Virus record (IMG/VR): IMGVR_UViG_3300024500_000050
Coordinates: 1-42,165 of that record
Length of the DNA stretch: 42,165 nt
From: a virus
Reading direction: 5' to 3' (one strand)
This document shows, one piece after another, positions 7,900 to 41,031 of this stretch; the first letter of the stretch is position 1; every line of letters starts with the position of its first letter. A program made the translations under genes and the position numbers. The notes under the pieces were generated by a model. It had not been told where the DNA came from. It saw only the letters and a list, made by a program, of their open reading frames with translations, and ran no database searches.

Positions 7900-10800
7900 A
7901 TGTCATTTACACAAGATTTCCGAACCCAACGAAGAAACTACGAAGACGGCGACACCCGTATAGGTGAAAAAGACCGTCTTTGGTACGATGGAATAACCAA
8001 TACAATACGCATCTCTGACGGTGAAACTCCGGGCGGTTTAGCCGTAGGCGGAGCGGGCGGCAGTAGTTATGTGCTACCTACAGCAACTACCACAGTTAAA
8101 GGTGGTATTAAGATTGATGGCACAACTATTGCTATCGATAACAGCGTTATCAGTGTAGGCACAGTTCCCTACTCTAGTATATCAGGTGCCCCTACAGTTC
8201 CAACAAATGTTAGCCAACTTACAAACGACACAGGATTTATCACAGGTGTAAGTTGGGACGCAGTCACAGGCAAGCCTTCACTATTCAGTGGTGCTTACGC
8301 CGACTTAACTGGCAAGCCTACAAATGTTAGCTCATTTACTAACGACAGCGGATACCTAACATCCAGTTCATTATCAAGTTATGCTACACAAAGTTATGTA
8401 ACCAGTCGCGGCTATATTACATCAGCAAGCATACCTACAGCAGTTAGCCAACTGTCAAACGACAGCAACTTTCTAGTTCAAAGTAATTTTGATCTAAACA
8501 CTATCAATCTTGATGCTAATGGCAAGTTACACACTACAGGTATCCTCCCTGGCGATGCTGATGGATTCACAGCAGTATTCGCAGGACGTGCGGCAGGTGT
8601 GGCAGCACTACCAAATACAGTTATCCAAAGTCAAGCACAGGTCAACGACTACGCACAGAATAACTTCCAAAATACCAGCGACGGTGCTCACTCAAGTACA
8701 GAATGGGTAGCAACAAGTCCTAATGGCAGTGACACAGACTACTACATTGACATGGGTATCAACGGTGCGAGCTGGGATGGTACAGCAGAGAATAGCCTAT
8801 ATGACAACGTGGGACAACGTGATGGTTGGTTGTATGTTCAAGGTGGCAATGCTGGCGGAGGTAATCTAGTATTAGGTACAAGTATTGCTAATACCTACAC
8901 AAAGATTGTAGCAGGCAATGTAGCCACAGGCGATAGAGAAGTCATTCGATTTAGTAGTACAGAAGTTAAACTGAGCAAACAGTTAACATTCAACGACAAC
9001 ACTACACAGACAACAGCGTGGTTAGGAACATACAGTTGGAATGATTTAACCGATGCTCCAACTATTCCATTAGATACCGGCGACTTAACTAACAACGCAG
9101 GATTTATTACCAGTGCCGCATTATCTGGCTATGCTACTTTAACTGGCGAAGAAACACTAACCAATAAAACATTTACCAGTCCAACAATTAACAATCCAAC
9201 CTTCAACGGTACATTTGCTTTTGAAAGTAATAACACTAACCAACCGGCTATGACATTGACAGCCAGTGTCTTACAGGATGGTGTTGGTATTCTTCGTGTT
9301 ATTGGTAGCGAACCAGATATTAACTTTAATCAAGTTTCGGCTAGTCCAGGATTTAATACATTTACATTTGAATGGAACGGAGATCCTAAACTGGCAATGG
9401 GTCGCAGAAACGATCACAGTTTCTATATTACTCGCAACGATGGTGCTTGGCACGACAACGCATTTGTCTTAGACTATGCTACTGGTGTACTGTCAGTAGA
9501 GTCTGGTATCTCTGTTCCAAGCATAAACTTTGCTGACGAAACTACACAGACAACTGCTTGGACTGGCTCTGTTGATTGGGCCAACGTAACTAATCAACCA
9601 ACACTGACTACATCCTTGTCAGCACTGACAGATGTTAACGTCACAGGTGCTATCACAGGACAAGTATTAACCTATGACTCTGTTACACATAGTTGGATAC
9701 CAGGCGGATCGGGTGGAGGTGCTACAGGTGCTCTAGGCTACTACGGTAGTTTCTATGATGTCACAGCACAACAGTCTAACGCAGGTGCTACCAGTGCTAA
9801 CCTAGTATTAATTGGCGGAACTTATGAAGCCAACGGTATTACAATACAGAACGGATCTAAGATCACGTTCAGTTATGCTGGCACATATTCTATCGTATTC
9901 AGTTTACAGTTTGTCAATGACAATGCCGCAGAACAGGATGTCAGTGTTTGGTTAAAGACTACAGTCAATGGTGTTACTTCAAACGTAGATGACAGTACAG
10001 TGGTTTATACTATCGATGCTGATACAGGATCATTGGGCAAGTTGGTTGCTATCAATCCGTTCATTCTAACTGTTGAAGCAGGAGAACAGATACAGATATA
10101 TTGGCAGAGTCCTAGCACTGATGTTTACCTTAAGACCATTGCCGCACAAACAAGTCCTTCAGTGCCACGAGCCCCGGCAGTTATTCTAACAGTTGAACAA
10201 ACATCTAGTATCGTAGTTCCAGACAGTATTGCTGGCAATGCTGCCACCGTGACTAATGGTGTTTACACTACAGGAAGTTACGCTAATCCAAGTTGGATTA
10301 CCAGTTTAGCAGGTAGTAAGGTTACTAATGCTGTTCTAACCACAGACACTGGTACTGTTACTAATACTATGTTGGCCGGCAGTATTGCCAATAACAAGTT
10401 AGCCAACAGCACAATCACAGTTAATGGAACAAGTATAAGTTTAGGTAGCAGTGGCACAGTCAACACAGCCAACGCACTAACTATCGGTAGAGGCTTAACA
10501 GGCACAGCCAGCACCTTCAATGGTAGTGCCGCAGTCACAGTTAGTTTGGATACAAGTACTACTACCGTTGTGGCAACAGCAGGTGCTACTACAACATTAG
10601 ATGCCGCAACTATAACTAGATATTACAATGTTACAGGATCAATAAGCGGTACACACATATTCAAACTGCCAGACTTGACTACGCTAACTGCTGGGCAACA
10701 GATTACATTCTTTACTTCGGCAGCAACTATAACTTATCAGTTGAGTACCGGCACACAAATAGTTTCTAATACTATAGCGACAGCAAGACAAACTACATTC

Positions 10801-32343: not shown

Positions 32344-32649
32344 ATGATTACAATAACAGAAACCGCTGAAAAAGAAATTCAAATGGTGCTGGATGAAAGC
32401 AAAGAAAAATACCTTAGAATTGCAATAGAAGGTGGAGGATGTTCGGGATTTAATTACGTGTTCGATTTTGCAAAAAACAAAGAAGAAGACGACTTTGAAT
32501 TTGGTAGAATATTAATAGATTCAATGAGCATGAACTATTTGCAAGGAGCCAAAGTCGACTTTATCGATGACTTAATGGGCTCTAGTTTTAATATTGAAAA
32601 TCCAAATGCACAAACAACTTGTGGATGTGGAAGTTCGTTTTCAGTTTAA
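32344..32649 (+). CDS. A-type Fe-S carrier (IscA/ErpA family), copy 1
   Basis: A 101-residue HesB-like protein that passes Fe-S clusters to target proteins. The three ligand Cys are present: GGGCSGF (Cys33) and TTCGCGSSF (Cys93, Cys95). It is the first gene of a three-gene Fe-S cluster with an early-type and a late-type promoter. It is more acidic than the second copy and could serve a different client. ErpA versus IscA cannot be separated from sequence alone. Confidence 0.92.
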   Translation: MITITETAEKEIQMVLDESKEKYLRIAIEGGGCSGFNYVFDFAKNKEEDDFEFGRILIDSMSMNYLQGAKVDFIDDLMGSSFNIENPNAQTTCGCGSSFSV

Positions 32650-32658
32650 GGAGATTAA

Positions 32659-33048
32659 ATGGCTTATTCCGATAGAGTTATAGATCACTACGAAAATCCT
32701 CGCAACGTAGGTAGTTTCCCTAAAGACGAGGAAGGCGTTGGCACAGGCATGGTGGGAGCACCTGCTTGCGGCGACGTGATGAAGTTACAAATTAAAGTTA
32801 ATAACGAGGGCATTATTGAGGATGCGAAATTCAAGACATACGGATGCGGAAGTGCTATTGCTAGTTCATCGTTGGTCACCGAGTGGCTCAAAGGAAAAAC
32901 GTTGGATCAAGCGGGAGAGATTAAGAACAGCGCGATTGCCGAAGAACTTGCACTTCCACCCGTTAAAATCCATTGTTCAATTCTTGCGGAAGATGCTATC
33001 AAAGCCGCAGTAGCAGACTACAAGGCAAAAAATGATATCACTGTCTGA
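32659..33048 (+). CDS. iscU: Fe-S cluster scaffold IscU
   Basis: A complete 129-residue scaffold. Key residues fall at the same numbers as in E. coli IscU: Cys37 and Asp39 (PACGD), Cys63 (YGCGSA), His105 and Cys106, and the chaperone-recognition motif LPPVK at 99-103. In bacteria IscU takes sulfur from IscS and is unloaded by the Hsp70 HscA with HscB. No iscS, hscA or hscB lies in the window, so host partners or the phage DnaK would be needed. It overlaps the next gene by 17 bases. Confidence 0.95.
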
Positions 33049-33352
33049 GAAAGCCGCAGAGCGAGTAAAGATTACACTAGACCGTAGGGGCAAAGGGCTA
33101 GGCATTCGATTAGGTGTTAAAACTACAGGCTGTAGTGGAATGGCTTATATGATTGAATTTGTTGACGAGCCCACAAAAGAAGATATGAGTTTTGTTAGTC
33201 ACGGTGTACACGTATTTGTTGATCCAAAAAGTCTAGCATACCTGGACGGTGTACAAGTTGAATGGGTAAAGAAAGGTCTTAACGAAGGATTTGACTTTAC
33301 CAATCCAAATGAACGTGACCGTTGTGGCTGTGGCGAGTCATTTCGAGTATAA
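33032..33352 (+). CDS. A-type Fe-S carrier (IscA family), copy 2
   Basis: A 106-residue HesB-like protein with Cys34 (TTGCSGM) and the C-terminal pair Cys98/Cys100 (DRCGCGESF). It resembles typical IscA more than the first copy ([17 protein letters not shown]). The start overlaps iscU by 17 bases, so the two are translated in step. Together the three genes could load host or phage Fe-S proteins, for example the ferredoxin needed by the bilin reductase (inference). Confidence 0.94.
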
Positions 33353-38562: not shown

Positions 38563-38570
38563 TATAAATA
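38563..38570 (+). promoter_or_regulatory. Late promoter (TATAAATA) of the chaperone genes
   Basis: An exact T4-type late octamer. Start of transcription would be near 38576, giving a leader of about 77 bases that contains three possible hairpins before dnaK. Confidence 0.7.
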
Positions 38571-38591
38571 ATTTTGTAGAACGCCAATAGG

Positions 38592-38615
38592 GTTTTACGA
38601 AACGGGCAGTTGCCC
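38592..38615 (+). other. Two tandem leader hairpins upstream of dnaK
   Basis: GTTT (38592-38595), loop TTACGA-type, AAAC (38600-38603), then GGGC (38604-38607), AGTT, GCCC (38612-38615). They lie 5' of the ribosome-binding-site hairpin, as the auxiliary stems of ROSE-type leaders do. Confidence 0.55.
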
Positions 38616-38625
38616 ACAATTAAAA

Positions 38626-38646
38626 TCTTGCTTAATTATAAGGAGA
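38626..38646 (+). promoter_or_regulatory. ROSE-like RNA thermometer hairpin, dnaK
   Basis: TCTTGCTT (38626-38633) pairs with AAGGAGA (38640-38646) through seven pairs with one bulged G and a U-G wobble; the loop is AATTAT. The stem covers the whole ribosome binding site. The UUGCU box opposite AGGA is the hallmark of ROSE elements. Confidence 0.68.
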
Positions 38647-38652
38647 AATGTT

Positions 38653-40518
38653 ATGAGCAAAGTCATCGGTATCGACTTGGGTACTACCAATTCATGCGTA
38701 GCAGTCATCGAGTCAGGAAATTCCAAAGTTATTGAAAACAGCGAAGGTGCAAGAACTACACCTAGTATTGTTGCCTATTCTACAGACGAAGTACTTGTAG
38801 GTGCTAGTGCTAAACGTCAAGCAGTAACAAATCCCAAAAACACAATCTATGCGGCCAAGCGTCTTATTGGACGTAAGTTCAAAGAACAGGCTGTACAAAA
38901 AGATATTGACCTAATGCCTTACGAAATCATGGAATCCAAGAATGGAGATGCATGGGTTCGCGCACAGGGTAAAGAATTAGCACCTCCGCAGATTAGTGCT
39001 GAAGTTCTGCGTAAGATGAAAAAGACAGCAGAGGATTATTTAGGTGAAAAAGTTACTCAAGCAGTTATCACAGTTCCCGCATACTTTAATGACAGCCAAA
39101 GACAGGCAACTAAGGATGCTGGAAAAATCGCAGGCTTGGAAGTATTGCGTATTATTAACGAGCCTACTGCGGCAGCTCTTGCTTATGGTGTTGATAAAAA
39201 CGACAAAGCAGATCGCAAAGTTGCTGTTTATGACCTTGGTGGTGGTACTTTCGATGTATCGATCATTGAAATTGCCAACGTGGATGGCGAAAAACAAATC
39301 GAAGTACTAAGCACTAACGGCGACACATTCTTAGGTGGTGAAGACTTTGACCAACGTATTATGGACTACTTGGTCGACGAGTTTAAGAAAGAGTCAGGCA
39401 TGAACCTTAAGAAAGACATGTTGGCCTTACAACGTCTAAAAGAAGCCGCTGAAAAAGCCAAGATTGAGTTATCTAGCAGTGCCAGCACTGATGTTAACTT
39501 ACCTTACATCACAGCAGACGCAAGTGGTCCTAAGCACATGAATGTTAAGATTACTCGTGCTAAGTTAGAAGCATTGGTAGAAGAACTAATCCAACGTAGT
39601 ATCGAACCATGTAAGGTTGCTATGAAGGATGCAGGTGTTACTCCATCAGAAATTGACGAAGTTATTCTTGTTGGTGGGCAAACACGTATGCCCAAGGTAC
39701 AAGAAGCAGTTGAAAAACTATTCGGTAAGGCTCCACGCAAAGACGTTAACCCAGACGAAGCAGTAGCAGTTGGTGCGGCTATTCAAGGTTCAGTACTAGC
39801 AGGTGATCGTACAGACGTTCTATTGTTAGACGTAACACCATTGTCACTAGGCATTGAAACTATGGGAGGTGTGTTTACTAAACTTGTACAAAAGAACACA
39901 ACTATACCTACTAAGGCTAGCCAAGTGTTTAGCACAGCAGAAGATAATCAACCAGCAGTTGATATCAAAGTAGCACAAGGCGAGCGTGAACTATTCCAAT
40001 ACAACAAACTCCTGGGTGAGTTTAAGTTAGACGGTATTGCTCCAGCACGTCGTGGCACTCCACAGATTGAAGTTACATTTGACATCGATGCTAACGGCAT
40101 TATGAAAATTAGTGCTAAAGATAAAAACACCGGCAAAGAAAATCAAATCACAATTAAGAGTGACAGTGGTCTAAGCAAAGAGCAGATCGAACAAATGGTT
40201 CGTGATGCAGAAGTTAATGCCGAATCAGATAAGAAGGCACGTGAACTTATCGATGCTAGGAACACAGCCGAGGCGTTGATCAACAATGTTGAAAACGACA
40301 TGAAAGAAACAACACTTTCAGACACAGATAAAACAAAGATCGAAGATGCTGTTAAAGCACTTCAAACAGAATTGACAGGTTCTGACAAAGACGCTATCGT
40401 ACAAAAGACTAGCGAACTAGCAGTGGCCAGTCAAGCGATTGCACAGGCCAAACAGGACAAGCCATTTGAACCTGTTCAGGAAGATGCAATCAATGCCGAG
40501 TTTAAGGAAACAAACTAA
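38653..40518 (+). CDS. dnaK: Chaperone DnaK (Hsp70)
   Basis: A complete 621-residue Hsp70 (E. coli DnaK 638). ATPase motifs: [13 protein letters not shown] (residues 5-17), [13 protein letters not shown], and [11 protein letters not shown]; the interdomain linker is [13 protein letters not shown]; the substrate domain and helical lid follow, ending [12 protein letters not shown], like the DnaK C-terminus. It is DnaK rather than HscA by linker, lid and tail. It refolds proteins with DnaJ/GrpE, which would come from the host. It is preceded by a late promoter and a hairpin over the ribosome binding site. Confidence 0.97.
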
Positions 40519-40527
40519 ACTCGTTAT

Positions 40528-40552
40528 GTAGGGTGCCCGGGTGGGGCCCTAC
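40528..40552 (+). other. GC-rich hairpin between dnaK and hsp20
   Basis: GTAGGG (40528-40533) pairs with CCCTAC (40547-40552); inside, CCC and GGG can also pair. No T-run follows, so it is more likely part of the hsp20 leader or an mRNA-processing/stability element than a terminator. Confidence 0.6.
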
Positions 40553-40558
40553 TAAAAT

Positions 40559-40578
40559 TCTTGCTTAATTAAAGGAGA
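40559..40578 (+). promoter_or_regulatory. ROSE-like RNA thermometer hairpin, hsp20
   Basis: TCTTGCTT (40559-40566) and AAAGGAGA (40571-40578) form the same seven-pair stem with bulged G and U-G wobble as at dnaK; loop AATT plus A. The ribosome binding site aaggag is fully paired. Confidence 0.7.
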
Positions 40579-40584
40579 TATAAA

Positions 40585-41031
40585 ATGACACAATTAACAC
40601 GTTTTGACACAGCCGCTCTAAACAGAGCATTAATCGGTTTCGACAATCTATTCGATACTTTCGAAACACGCTTTGCACATCAGATTTCGAACAACTATCC
40701 TCCATATAATATTGAAAAGTCTGGAGAAAACCAGTATAATATAGTTGTTGCTGTAGCAGGATTCGGTAAAGATGAAGTTGCAGTAGAAGTGGAAGGTGAT
40801 CAATTAACTATTCGCGGCGAGAAGGCAATCAATGCTAACGAAGGCGAATACCAAGTTGAGTACTTACACAGAGGTCTTGCTTTCCGTGATTTCGAACGTA
40901 GATTTACTCTAGCAGAACACATGGAAATCAAGTCAGCAGAAATTAAGGATGGTGTGCTTACAATTCAAATCGAGCGCATTGTTCCTGAAGCACTTCTGCC
41001 ACGTAAGATTGAAGTGAAAGAAGTTAAGTAA
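40585..41031 (+). CDS. Small heat-shock protein (Hsp20, IbpA-like)
   Basis: A 148-residue alpha-crystallin-domain holdase. YPPYNIEKSGENQYNIVVAV (about residues 38-57) matches class A IbpA-type proteins, and AFRDFERRFTLAEHMEIKSA with GVLTIQIER completes the domain. The C-terminal I-x-I/V anchor is present as RKIEVKEV. It holds unfolding proteins for DnaK. No promoter motif lies between dnaK and this gene, so they are probably one transcript with separate translational hairpins. Confidence 0.95.
   Translation: MTQLTRFDTAALNRALIGFDNLFDTFETRFAHQISNNYPPYNIEKSGENQYNIVVAVAGFGKDEVAVEVEGDQLTIRGEKAINANEGEYQVEYLHRGLAFRDFERRFTLAEHMEIKSAEIKDGVLTIQIERIVPEALLPRKIEVKEVK

Follow-up and report, generated by a model that had tools for sequence, protein, structure and literature searches.

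How does a phage that carries its own chaperone genes control their translation, and does temperature take part? The question is raised by the right end of IMG/VR record IMGVR_UViG_3300024500_000050 (linear, 42,165 bases; analysed whole and called the window below), where dnaK and hsp20 are each preceded by a leader in which the Shine-Dalgarno (SD) sequence can pair within a hairpin. A preliminary description had taken the two leaders for ROSE-like RNA thermometers. From sequence comparison, we conclude that both are probably ROSE-like translational switches of the short kind (the layout of the Rfam family ROSE_3) on phage chaperone genes, a reading to which we give a probability of about 0.72. 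According to it, an upstream hairpin (hairpin I) would lie close to where the mRNA presumably begins, and in the downstream hairpin (hairpin II) UYGCU would pair with the SD around one bulged purine, keeping ribosomes off. Being marginally stable, hairpin II would open on warming, and the phage Hsp20 and DnaK, as well as GroES in some other phages, would then be made.

Two leaders of one design

In both leaders the anti-SD UCUUGCUU faces the SD AAGGAGA (coordinates in Table 1). Read directly, the arms are TCTTGCTT-AATTAT-AAGGAGA before dnaK (38626 to 38646; ATG at 38653) and TCTTGCTT-AATTA-AAGGAGA before hsp20 (40559 to 40578; ATG at 40585), and the pairs are the same: U-A, C-G, U-A, U-G, then the bulged G (G38630 or G40563), C-G, U-A, and U-A, with one A-U pair beyond these seven in the dnaK core fold. 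The preliminary description had reported these arms, with seven pairs, a bulged G, and a U-G wobble, and also hairpins upstream of them; both statements agree with what we read, there being one upstream hairpin in the hsp20 leader and two in the dnaK leader. The pattern TTGCTTN{2,12}AAGGAG occurred twice in the window, both times directly before these genes, while 0.14 occurrences were expected per shuffled window and only 1 of 100 shuffled windows held two. Strong pairing of the SD region is also seen at some other gene starts in the window, but an anti-SD pairing arisen by chance, with no regulatory element behind it, is contradicted by these shuffles and by the control scans and conservation described below, and we consider it extremely improbable.

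In the papers cited here, ROSE elements are bacterial and lie on small heat-shock genes and, as found later, also on ATP-binding cassette (ABC) transporter genes (PMC3669281, PMC11342760, PMC10474464). A ROSE-like element is defined by U(U/C)GCU facing the SD with a bulged G, whose deletion lowers heat induction (PMC11342760). Both window leaders have U(U/C)GCU imperfectly paired with the SD in the 3' hairpin, with the bulged G. They also have two to four hairpins within about 60 to more than 100 nucleotides (nt), namely two for hsp20 and three for dnaK, the length of the untranslated region (UTR) being presumed. ROSE elements typically precede small heat-shock genes, as the copy at hsp20 does and the one at dnaK does not. 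The four consecutive U facing the SD that mark a fourU thermometer are absent, the anti-SD being UCUUGCUU.

Conservation and target specificity

Relatives of the two genes were collected from viral contigs as the best 80 of 333 and the best 80 of 592 stretches, giving 79 and 80 loci. By an automatic rule ([C/T]T[T/C][G/A]CT, 2 to 12 nt, [A/G]GGAG), the motif was present in 101 of the 103 distinct viral hsp20 leaders and in 69 of the 70 distinct viral dnaK leaders, one leader of each gene that was cut by a contig end having been left out. The dnaK miss (L012) was due to a misplaced start, the true leader having the A-bulge motif CTTACTT. Of the two hsp20 leaders scored as lacking the motif, L056 has a weakened arm and L042 (start misplaced by 12 nt) genuinely lacks it, a real exception to the pattern; L012 and L042 were dropped from the bulge analyses. 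Flanks, loops, and stems vary widely among the relatives, and the arms do not. The preliminary description had named the opposite outcome, arms not conserved in homologous phage leaders or changed without compensation, as what would speak against it. Where the arms do change, pairing is kept: U-G becomes C-G beside the bulge, and the outer U-A becomes C-G in 4 cases. In the hsp20 leaders of two pelagiphages, HTVC008M (L757) and Mosig (L758), AACUUUGCUU pairs with AAGGAGGUU; here the arm is longer, and each side has changed to match the other.

Inspection by eye of 11 hsp20 leaders from named records, chosen from the best 40 of 507 records with a match, showed YTYGCT before the SD in all 11 (HTVC008M, Mosig, Bellamy, Melnitz-3, Syn19, HTVC115P, C48C1, Phosso, P-TIM68, S-PRM1, and S-SM2). 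They span pelagiphages, cyanophages, a methylophage, a Sinorhizobium phage, and Phage C48C1. The script rule placed hairpin II correctly in nine of them, and the same nine had a bulged G in hairpin I; S-PRM1 was missed and Syn19 misplaced.

To what genes the motif belongs was determined by scanning viral contigs with CTTGCTTN{3,9}AAGGAGA and variants of it, in nonrandom samples of at least 120 stretches. Among the 122 matches listed for the G-bulge pattern, 90 lay before the two chaperone genes (85 hsp20 and 5 dnaK); another ATG frame followed in 6, a GTG or TTG frame in 5, and no frame in 21. The A-bulge pattern preceded hsp20 or dnaK in 17 of 125 matches listed. The control patterns did so in 1 of 120 (scrambled arm, CTTCGTT), 0 of 120 (pyrimidine bulge), and 0 of 120 (no bulge) matches listed. 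Three hsp20 genes were found among the 117 matches listed for the G-bulge pattern in bacterial genomes, where leaders often have different loop and SD letters.

A wider form of the motif preceded 330 distinct frames (loci L003-L281, L402-L521, and L757-L767): 199 hsp20, 85 dnaK, and 46 others. Thirty-eight of the others came from loci of the A-pattern scan, and the remaining eight include genes for GroES, identified as Cpn10 by Pfam in L127 and L111 and by eye in L115, L126, and L248. The groES leaders at L127:1881-2260 (bulges G/G) and L111:5855-6234 (A/A) have a bulge in each hairpin and match the other chaperone leaders of their contigs; L248 also has a groES gene with a twin-bulge leader, near 10776. 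A leader with a hairpin and an anti-SD was also seen at a rubredoxin gene (L193:2280) and at two short genes (L167:1826, minus strand, and L222:4206) for which Pfam gave no match within the stretches scanned.

The bulged purines of the two hairpins change together

Beyond what the preliminary description contained are a second bulged-purine motif in the upstream hairpin, the groES leaders, an A-bulge variant, and a possible protein reader. Hairpin I repeats the local motif of hairpin II, that is, a pyrimidine, a bulged purine, and C-Y facing R-G. It was detected in 165 of 172 distinct leaders, the seven without a call being kept as such in the counts, and in 893 of 3,440 prefixes shuffled by mononucleotide, in which the bulge was A in 321, T in 268, G in 190, and C in 114. 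The bulges of hairpins II and I in hsp20 leaders were G/G in 78, A/A in 23, G/A in 1, and G/none in 1. Where both hairpins had a call (102 leaders), the letters matched in 101, and the exception (L055) shows a G bulge by eye. For dnaK the counts were G/G 42, A/A 17, G/A 2, A/G 1, G/T 1, and none 6. Viewed by eye, two of the dnaK exceptions (L161 and L093) show a G bulge and a third (L143) reads CTTGCTT, leaving L137, with A in hairpin I and G in hairpin II, as the sole truly mixed leader. The hsp20 leader of L137 is A/A and residue 58 of its Hsp20 is Ser; this contig is a possible intermediate.

The agreement extends across genes. Of 70 distinct pairs of dnaK and hsp20 leaders sharing a contig, 68 have the same hairpin II bulge (47 G and 21 A), and the other two are L137 and the miscalled L143; the groES bulge, which is G in L127 and A in both L111 and L115, follows the other leaders of its contig. 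As a pattern in the sequences compared, the coupling is real. The A-bulge relatives fall outside the published bulged-G definition of ROSE. The bacterial comparison covered 50 loci: two yardsticks, genomes that the G pattern had turned up first, and matches within the two classes of these. There the hairpin II bulge was G in all 36 with a call, 14 having none, and hairpin I of those 36 had G in 24, A in 2, C in 2, T in 1, and no bulge in 7.

One way to explain the coupling without a protein is a tertiary contact within one leader, the two bulges touching as G-G or A-A. Like-with-like contact between purines would yield the G/G or A/A pattern, but it predicts neither the agreement of separate leaders (68 of 70) nor the behavior of residue 58 described below, and the spacer between the hairpins is variable and may hold an extra hairpin. 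We regard such a contact as unlikely.

Hsp20 as a possible reader of the leaders

Escherichia coli IbpA is a repressor of its own translation and acts by binding to the 5' UTR of ibpA; its R93 is irreplaceable for repression, and at Y34, of the replacements reported, only the aromatic W or F kept it. IbpA binds structured RNAs such as thermometers, the extract of that paper stating no recognition site (PMC10474464). All 109 viral Hsp20s compared keep Y and R at the positions equivalent to Y34 and R93; position 97 is R or K in 92 of 109, and position 98 is basic in 16 of 109. Judged by Y34, R93, and basic residues at 97 and 98 as marks of the IbpA type, the window Hsp20 has all four (Y, R, R, R), as do only 15 of the 109.

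In the alignment column that separates best, picked post hoc (residue 58 in window numbering), Hsp20s with A-bulge leaders have Thr in 28 and Ser in 1 (n = 29), and those with G-bulge leaders have Ala in 155, Ser in 4, and Gly in 1 (n = 160); all 50 bacterial loci have Ala. These observations are consistent with phage Hsp20 being a sequence-reading RNA regulator that recognizes Y-[R]-C-Y facing R-G-R in both hairpins, with hsp20, dnaK, and groES as one regulon, where a replacement of Ala58 by Thr would accompany a switch of every such bulge from G to A. As a second layer over the thermal switch, idle Hsp20 of the IbpA type would bind the leaders and, when titrated by denatured protein, let go, and one protein would coordinate several chaperone genes. 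We regard this layer as plausible, at somewhat less than even odds, and the specific role of Hsp20 as reader, which would make it the cause of the coupling, as equally tentative. Bacterial IbpA may follow the same recognition logic.

The coupling could also reflect descent: the leaders would be thermometers only, read by no protein, and bulge letters and residue 58 would have been inherited together in a few phage lineages. RNA thermometers are indeed described as protein-independent tools (PMC10639063). On an Hsp20 tree of 148 rows the bulge letter needed three changes, the starred branches forced two changes, and 0 of 200 bootstrap trees needed only one. On a 57-row tree with residue 58 masked, the bulge needed three changes and residue 58 four, and the starred branches forced a single change; the independent pairs numbered one on supported branches and three on all branches, too few for a sign test to have power. 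Because about three switches are too few, shared ancestry of the bulge letters and residue 58 remains compatible with the data. Against descent alone speak the low support for a single A-group origin (p-AU, from the approximately unbiased test, 0.024 on the 57-row tree, besides the bootstrap result), the matching bulge in 101 of 102 hsp20 leaders of a hairpin I that has no SD contact, the joint switching of dnaK, groES, and hsp20 leaders although dnaK and hsp20 do not have hairpin I arms copied from each other, and the fact that IbpA is a known RNA-binding self-repressor (PMC10474464). We hold a thermometer without a reader to be a serious candidate, at somewhat less than an even chance. A structure prediction for the window Hsp20 had a mean pLDDT (predicted local distance difference test) of 73, and nothing was concluded from it about the distance from residue 58 to R101.

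Family membership, covariation, and predicted folding

The ROSE-like switch reading has several results against it, and these are set out here together with those that soften them. The Rfam ROSE covariance search that the preliminary description proposed did not place the leaders in the family. The window dnaK leader scored 19.6 bits with ROSE_3 (RF02523; expectation value [E], 0.041 for 181 bases and 4,227 families), below the cut-off of 43, and in this match hairpin I of the model was aligned to the middle hairpin and not to the bulged hairpin I. The hsp20 leader had no ROSE match at an E of ≤10, and at the gathering score no ROSE element was found in the window and 16 relatives. Among the 11 isolate hsp20 leaders, four scored with ROSE_3 (Melnitz-3, 34.1; C48C1, 26.8; S-SM2, 24.9; S-PRM1, 20.1) and the other seven had no ROSE match at an E of ≤5; the further best phage scores were 32, 30.5, and 28.7, so none reached 43. 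As yardsticks, ibpA in a Pseudomonas phage record scored 69.2 (ROSE_3) and Salmonella ibpA 95.2 (ROSE_2). A ROSE_3 match at an E of ≤1 was found in 14 of 30 whole phage records, none above the cut-off, and was lacking in 16; unrelated control genomes gave a weak one in 6 of 14, likewise none above the cut-off. By coordinates, the eight best matches in the phage records lay at six hsp20 leaders, one dnaK leader, and one groES leader, and of the other six, two lay at dnaK leaders (contigs of L048 and L052) and four elsewhere. We name the element ROSE-like, and not a member of RF02523, because these scores stay below the cut-off. The claim of ROSE-like thermometers on phage dnaK and hsp20 stands as to architecture, which precedes chaperone genes with conserved arms, and falls short at the Rfam cut-off.

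Covariation was examined in an alignment of 46 leaders, where 96.3% of hairpin I cells were paired and 7 of 9 pairs had changed on both sides. Double-change cells numbered 127 unslid, all in helix 1, and 24 to 34 when the structure string was slid, the slid counts being for the whole string. Two of five whole-structure measures were no better than shuffles: pairs changed on both sides (7, versus 8.6 in shuffles) and further pair types (33, versus 30.2 in shuffles and reached by 33 of 500). The whole-structure string includes a misindexed helix 2, whose counts were not used, and loops of variable length misalign the SD in family alignments A1, A3, and A4. For hairpin II the search rule required five of the pairs, and 172 of 173 distinct leaders passed it. 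The 139 distinct sequences of hairpin II had U-G (129) or C-G (10) next to the bulge, kept a sixth core pair in 135, and had as the next outer pair U-A in 101, C-G in 4, and A-U in 1, with 33 unpaired there. Hairpin II thus shows little independent covariation, because the SD-side letters are nearly invariant and the finding rule itself demands five pairs.

The preliminary description had also suggested that this phage duplicated the element for Hsp70. We find the element before almost all related phage dnaK genes, and the arms are no more alike within contigs than between them. Recent copying of a leader between dnaK and hsp20 was not supported, the likeness of hairpin I arms being 0.395 within a contig (47 contigs) and 0.413 between contigs (permutation P = 0.75).

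Predicted folding treated the two leaders differently. In isolated cores the SD hairpin was the predicted minimum-energy fold of both; in constructs with 30 nt of coding sequence it remained the minimum for hsp20, as in the contexts used below for melting, and not for dnaK. When 38 gene starts of the window were folded from -32 to +9 at 20°C, the SD of hsp20 was the most paired (0.91; two others, 0.90) and that of dnaK among the least (0.04). From 20 to 42°C, SD pairing in the segment from -62 to +3 fell from 0.91 to 0.77 for hsp20 and from 0.83 to 0.70 for dnaK. This computed melting is shallow, but it is no evidence against a thermometer, because the Pseudomonas aeruginosa ibpA thermometer, whose function is published (PMC3669281), behaves similarly (0.97 to 0.88).

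Without coding sequence, the dnaK UTR was closed at 20°C (0.96 for -38 to +3 and 0.83 for -62 to +3); with 20 nt of coding sequence it was open at all temperatures (0.07 to 0.13), because UUGCU can pair with AGCAA of codons 2 and 3. The Melnitz-3 hsp20 leader likewise opened with coding sequence (0.90 to 0.11), and for the dnaK leader of L086 the value was 0.70 at 20°C and 0.30 at 42°C. When the segment from -60 to +12 of 49 G-type dnaK leaders was folded, pairing of the SD with the anti-SD averaged 0.08 at 10°C, and at 20°C their SD was paired at all to 0.20, less than the 0.45 of 35 control genes with the same SD. Mean anti-SD pairing in 80 G-type hsp20 leaders was 0.48 at 10°C, and at 20°C it exceeded 0.5 in only 34 of the 80 and in 6 of 23 A-type leaders. 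The temperature folding that the preliminary description had asked for predicts for the window hsp20 an SD hairpin that is closed and opens shallowly on warming, and for dnaK an SD that is open once coding sequence is included. For dnaK, either the folding program errs, or the leader would be a two-state switch, or a protein would hold it closed. Codon 2 of dnaK genes with a G bulge (at the window dnaK, 38653-38664, and viral loci) is AGC in 42 of 50 and AGT in 7 of 50, complementary to the anti-SD UUGCU; elsewhere in those genes AGC and AGT make up 23% and 34% of Ser codons, and in A-bulge dnaK genes codon 2 is TCT in 11 of 19. This bias may reflect descent or a second, competing pairing.

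The behavior of dnaK bears on yet another explanation, an operator controlled by a phage repressor (Hsp20 or a RegA-like protein) in which temperature has no direct part. The conserved anti-SD could equally serve such a nonthermal repressor, the coupled bulges would fit a protein operator, and a regA-like gene lies directly upstream of hsp20 in three isolates. It is opposed by the same architecture in Pseudomonas ibpA, which is a tested thermometer (PMC3669281), and by the twin G bulges of bacterial IbpA-type leaders (24 of the 36 in which hairpin II was called), in genomes where phage repressors were not looked for. We judge it improbable and retain the ROSE-like switch for both leaders.

Gene context

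The features of the two loci are collected in Table 1. Downstream of dnaK and hsp20, the right end of the window holds a ClpS gene and a heme oxygenase gene (Pfam); elsewhere the window has ribonucleotide reductase, endolysin, and tail genes. The window Hsp20 scored 126.5 bits with the IbpA equivalog model, under the cut-off of 212. Among viral dnaK loci with room downstream, 103 of 105 also held hsp20, which began within 150 nt after dnaK in 96; in L104 and L106 the dnaK element was present and hsp20 absent from the stretch examined.

The sequence TATAAATA upstream of the dnaK leader hairpin I resembles the core of a T4-type late promoter. Among viral leaders with a hairpin I call, 60 of 63 for dnaK and 44 of 102 for hsp20 have TAAATA near that hairpin, between 40 nt upstream of it and 6 nt into it and mostly 0 to 6 nt away. 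Pseudomonas putida ibpA has a sigma-32 promoter, and many phage leaders have a core like that of T4 late promoters instead.

At 32344-33352 are three successive small genes that resemble, by eye and by conserved cysteines, iron-sulfur cluster assembly or scaffold proteins; the first, the sole one scanned, matches a PHROG of unknown function.

Table 1. Features of the dnaK and hsp20 loci in the window
Feature	Position	Strand	Basis
TATAAATA, upstream of dnaK leader hairpin I	38563..38570	+	
dnaK leader hairpin I, bulged G38583 in ACGCC/GGGU	38572..38602	+	Fold; motif in relatives; stem covariation (46 leaders)
dnaK leader middle hairpin, GGGC-AGUU-GCCC	38604..38615	+	Sequence, fold; in some relatives only
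dnaK leader hairpin II, anti-SD UCUUGCUU (bulged G38630) versus SD AAGGAGA (38640-38646)	38626..38646	+	
dnaK (Hsp70), 621 amino acids	38653..40518	+	NCBIfam NF001413, 973 bits, and TIGR02350, 909 bits, both above cut-off
hsp20 leader hairpin I, bulged G40535 in GUGCC/GGGC	40528..40552	+	Sequence, fold, relatives, covariation
hsp20 leader hairpin II, anti-SD UCUUGCUU (bulged G40563) versus SD AAGGAGA (40572-40578)	40559..40578	+	
hsp20 (IbpA-type small heat-shock protein), 148 amino acids	40585..41031	+	Pfam HSP20, 68.2 bits
Hsp20 Ala58 codon	40756-40758	+	
Hsp20 Arg101 codon (= E. coli IbpA R93)	40885-40887	+	

Comparison with known systems

Among the titles listed in searches of the open-licence literature there was no work on ROSE elements in phages, and none was found joining cyanophage, hsp20, and RNA thermometer. 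For jumbo phages, dnaK, dnaJ, and hsp20 have been reported in a paper from whose extract the word thermometer is absent (PMC12619734). The present leaders place the ROSE layout before the chaperone genes of many aquatic phages, those for Hsp70 and GroES included. Since the element occurs in cultured cyanophages and pelagiphages, it can be tested there, and the coupled bulges give a specific idea, open to experiment, of how a protein of the IbpA type could recognize its RNA. If heat opens the leaders, the supply of phage chaperones would track temperature.

Phage precedents for temperature-dependent access to the ribosome site in mRNA, proposed here for the chaperone leaders, are lambda cIII (PMC4166951) and the fourU element of SPbeta blyA (PMC10586365). 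Their structures and genes are different, cIII closing with heat and blyA using four U. The ROSE-like thermometers of ABC transporter genes (PMC11342760) share with the phage leaders U(U/C)GCU with a bulged G facing the SD, whereas the phage targets are chaperones and the phage leaders add an upstream hairpin with the same bulged motif.

Closest is the ROSE_3 element of Pseudomonas ibpA, a two-hairpin ROSE and tested thermometer (PMC3669281), with AUGCC..GGGU and a bulged G in hairpin I as in the phage leaders, CUYGCU facing AGGAG with a bulged G in hairpin II, and an adjoining gene of the IbpA type. The phage elements differ from it in lying also on dnaK and groES, in having an A/A-bulge variant, and in scoring under the cut-off. 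With the self-repression of E. coli IbpA (PMC10474464) the phage case would share a leader of the same class and an Hsp20 that keeps the Y34 and R93 equivalents; it would differ in extending to dnaK and groES, and position 98 is basic in only 16 of the 109 viral proteins.

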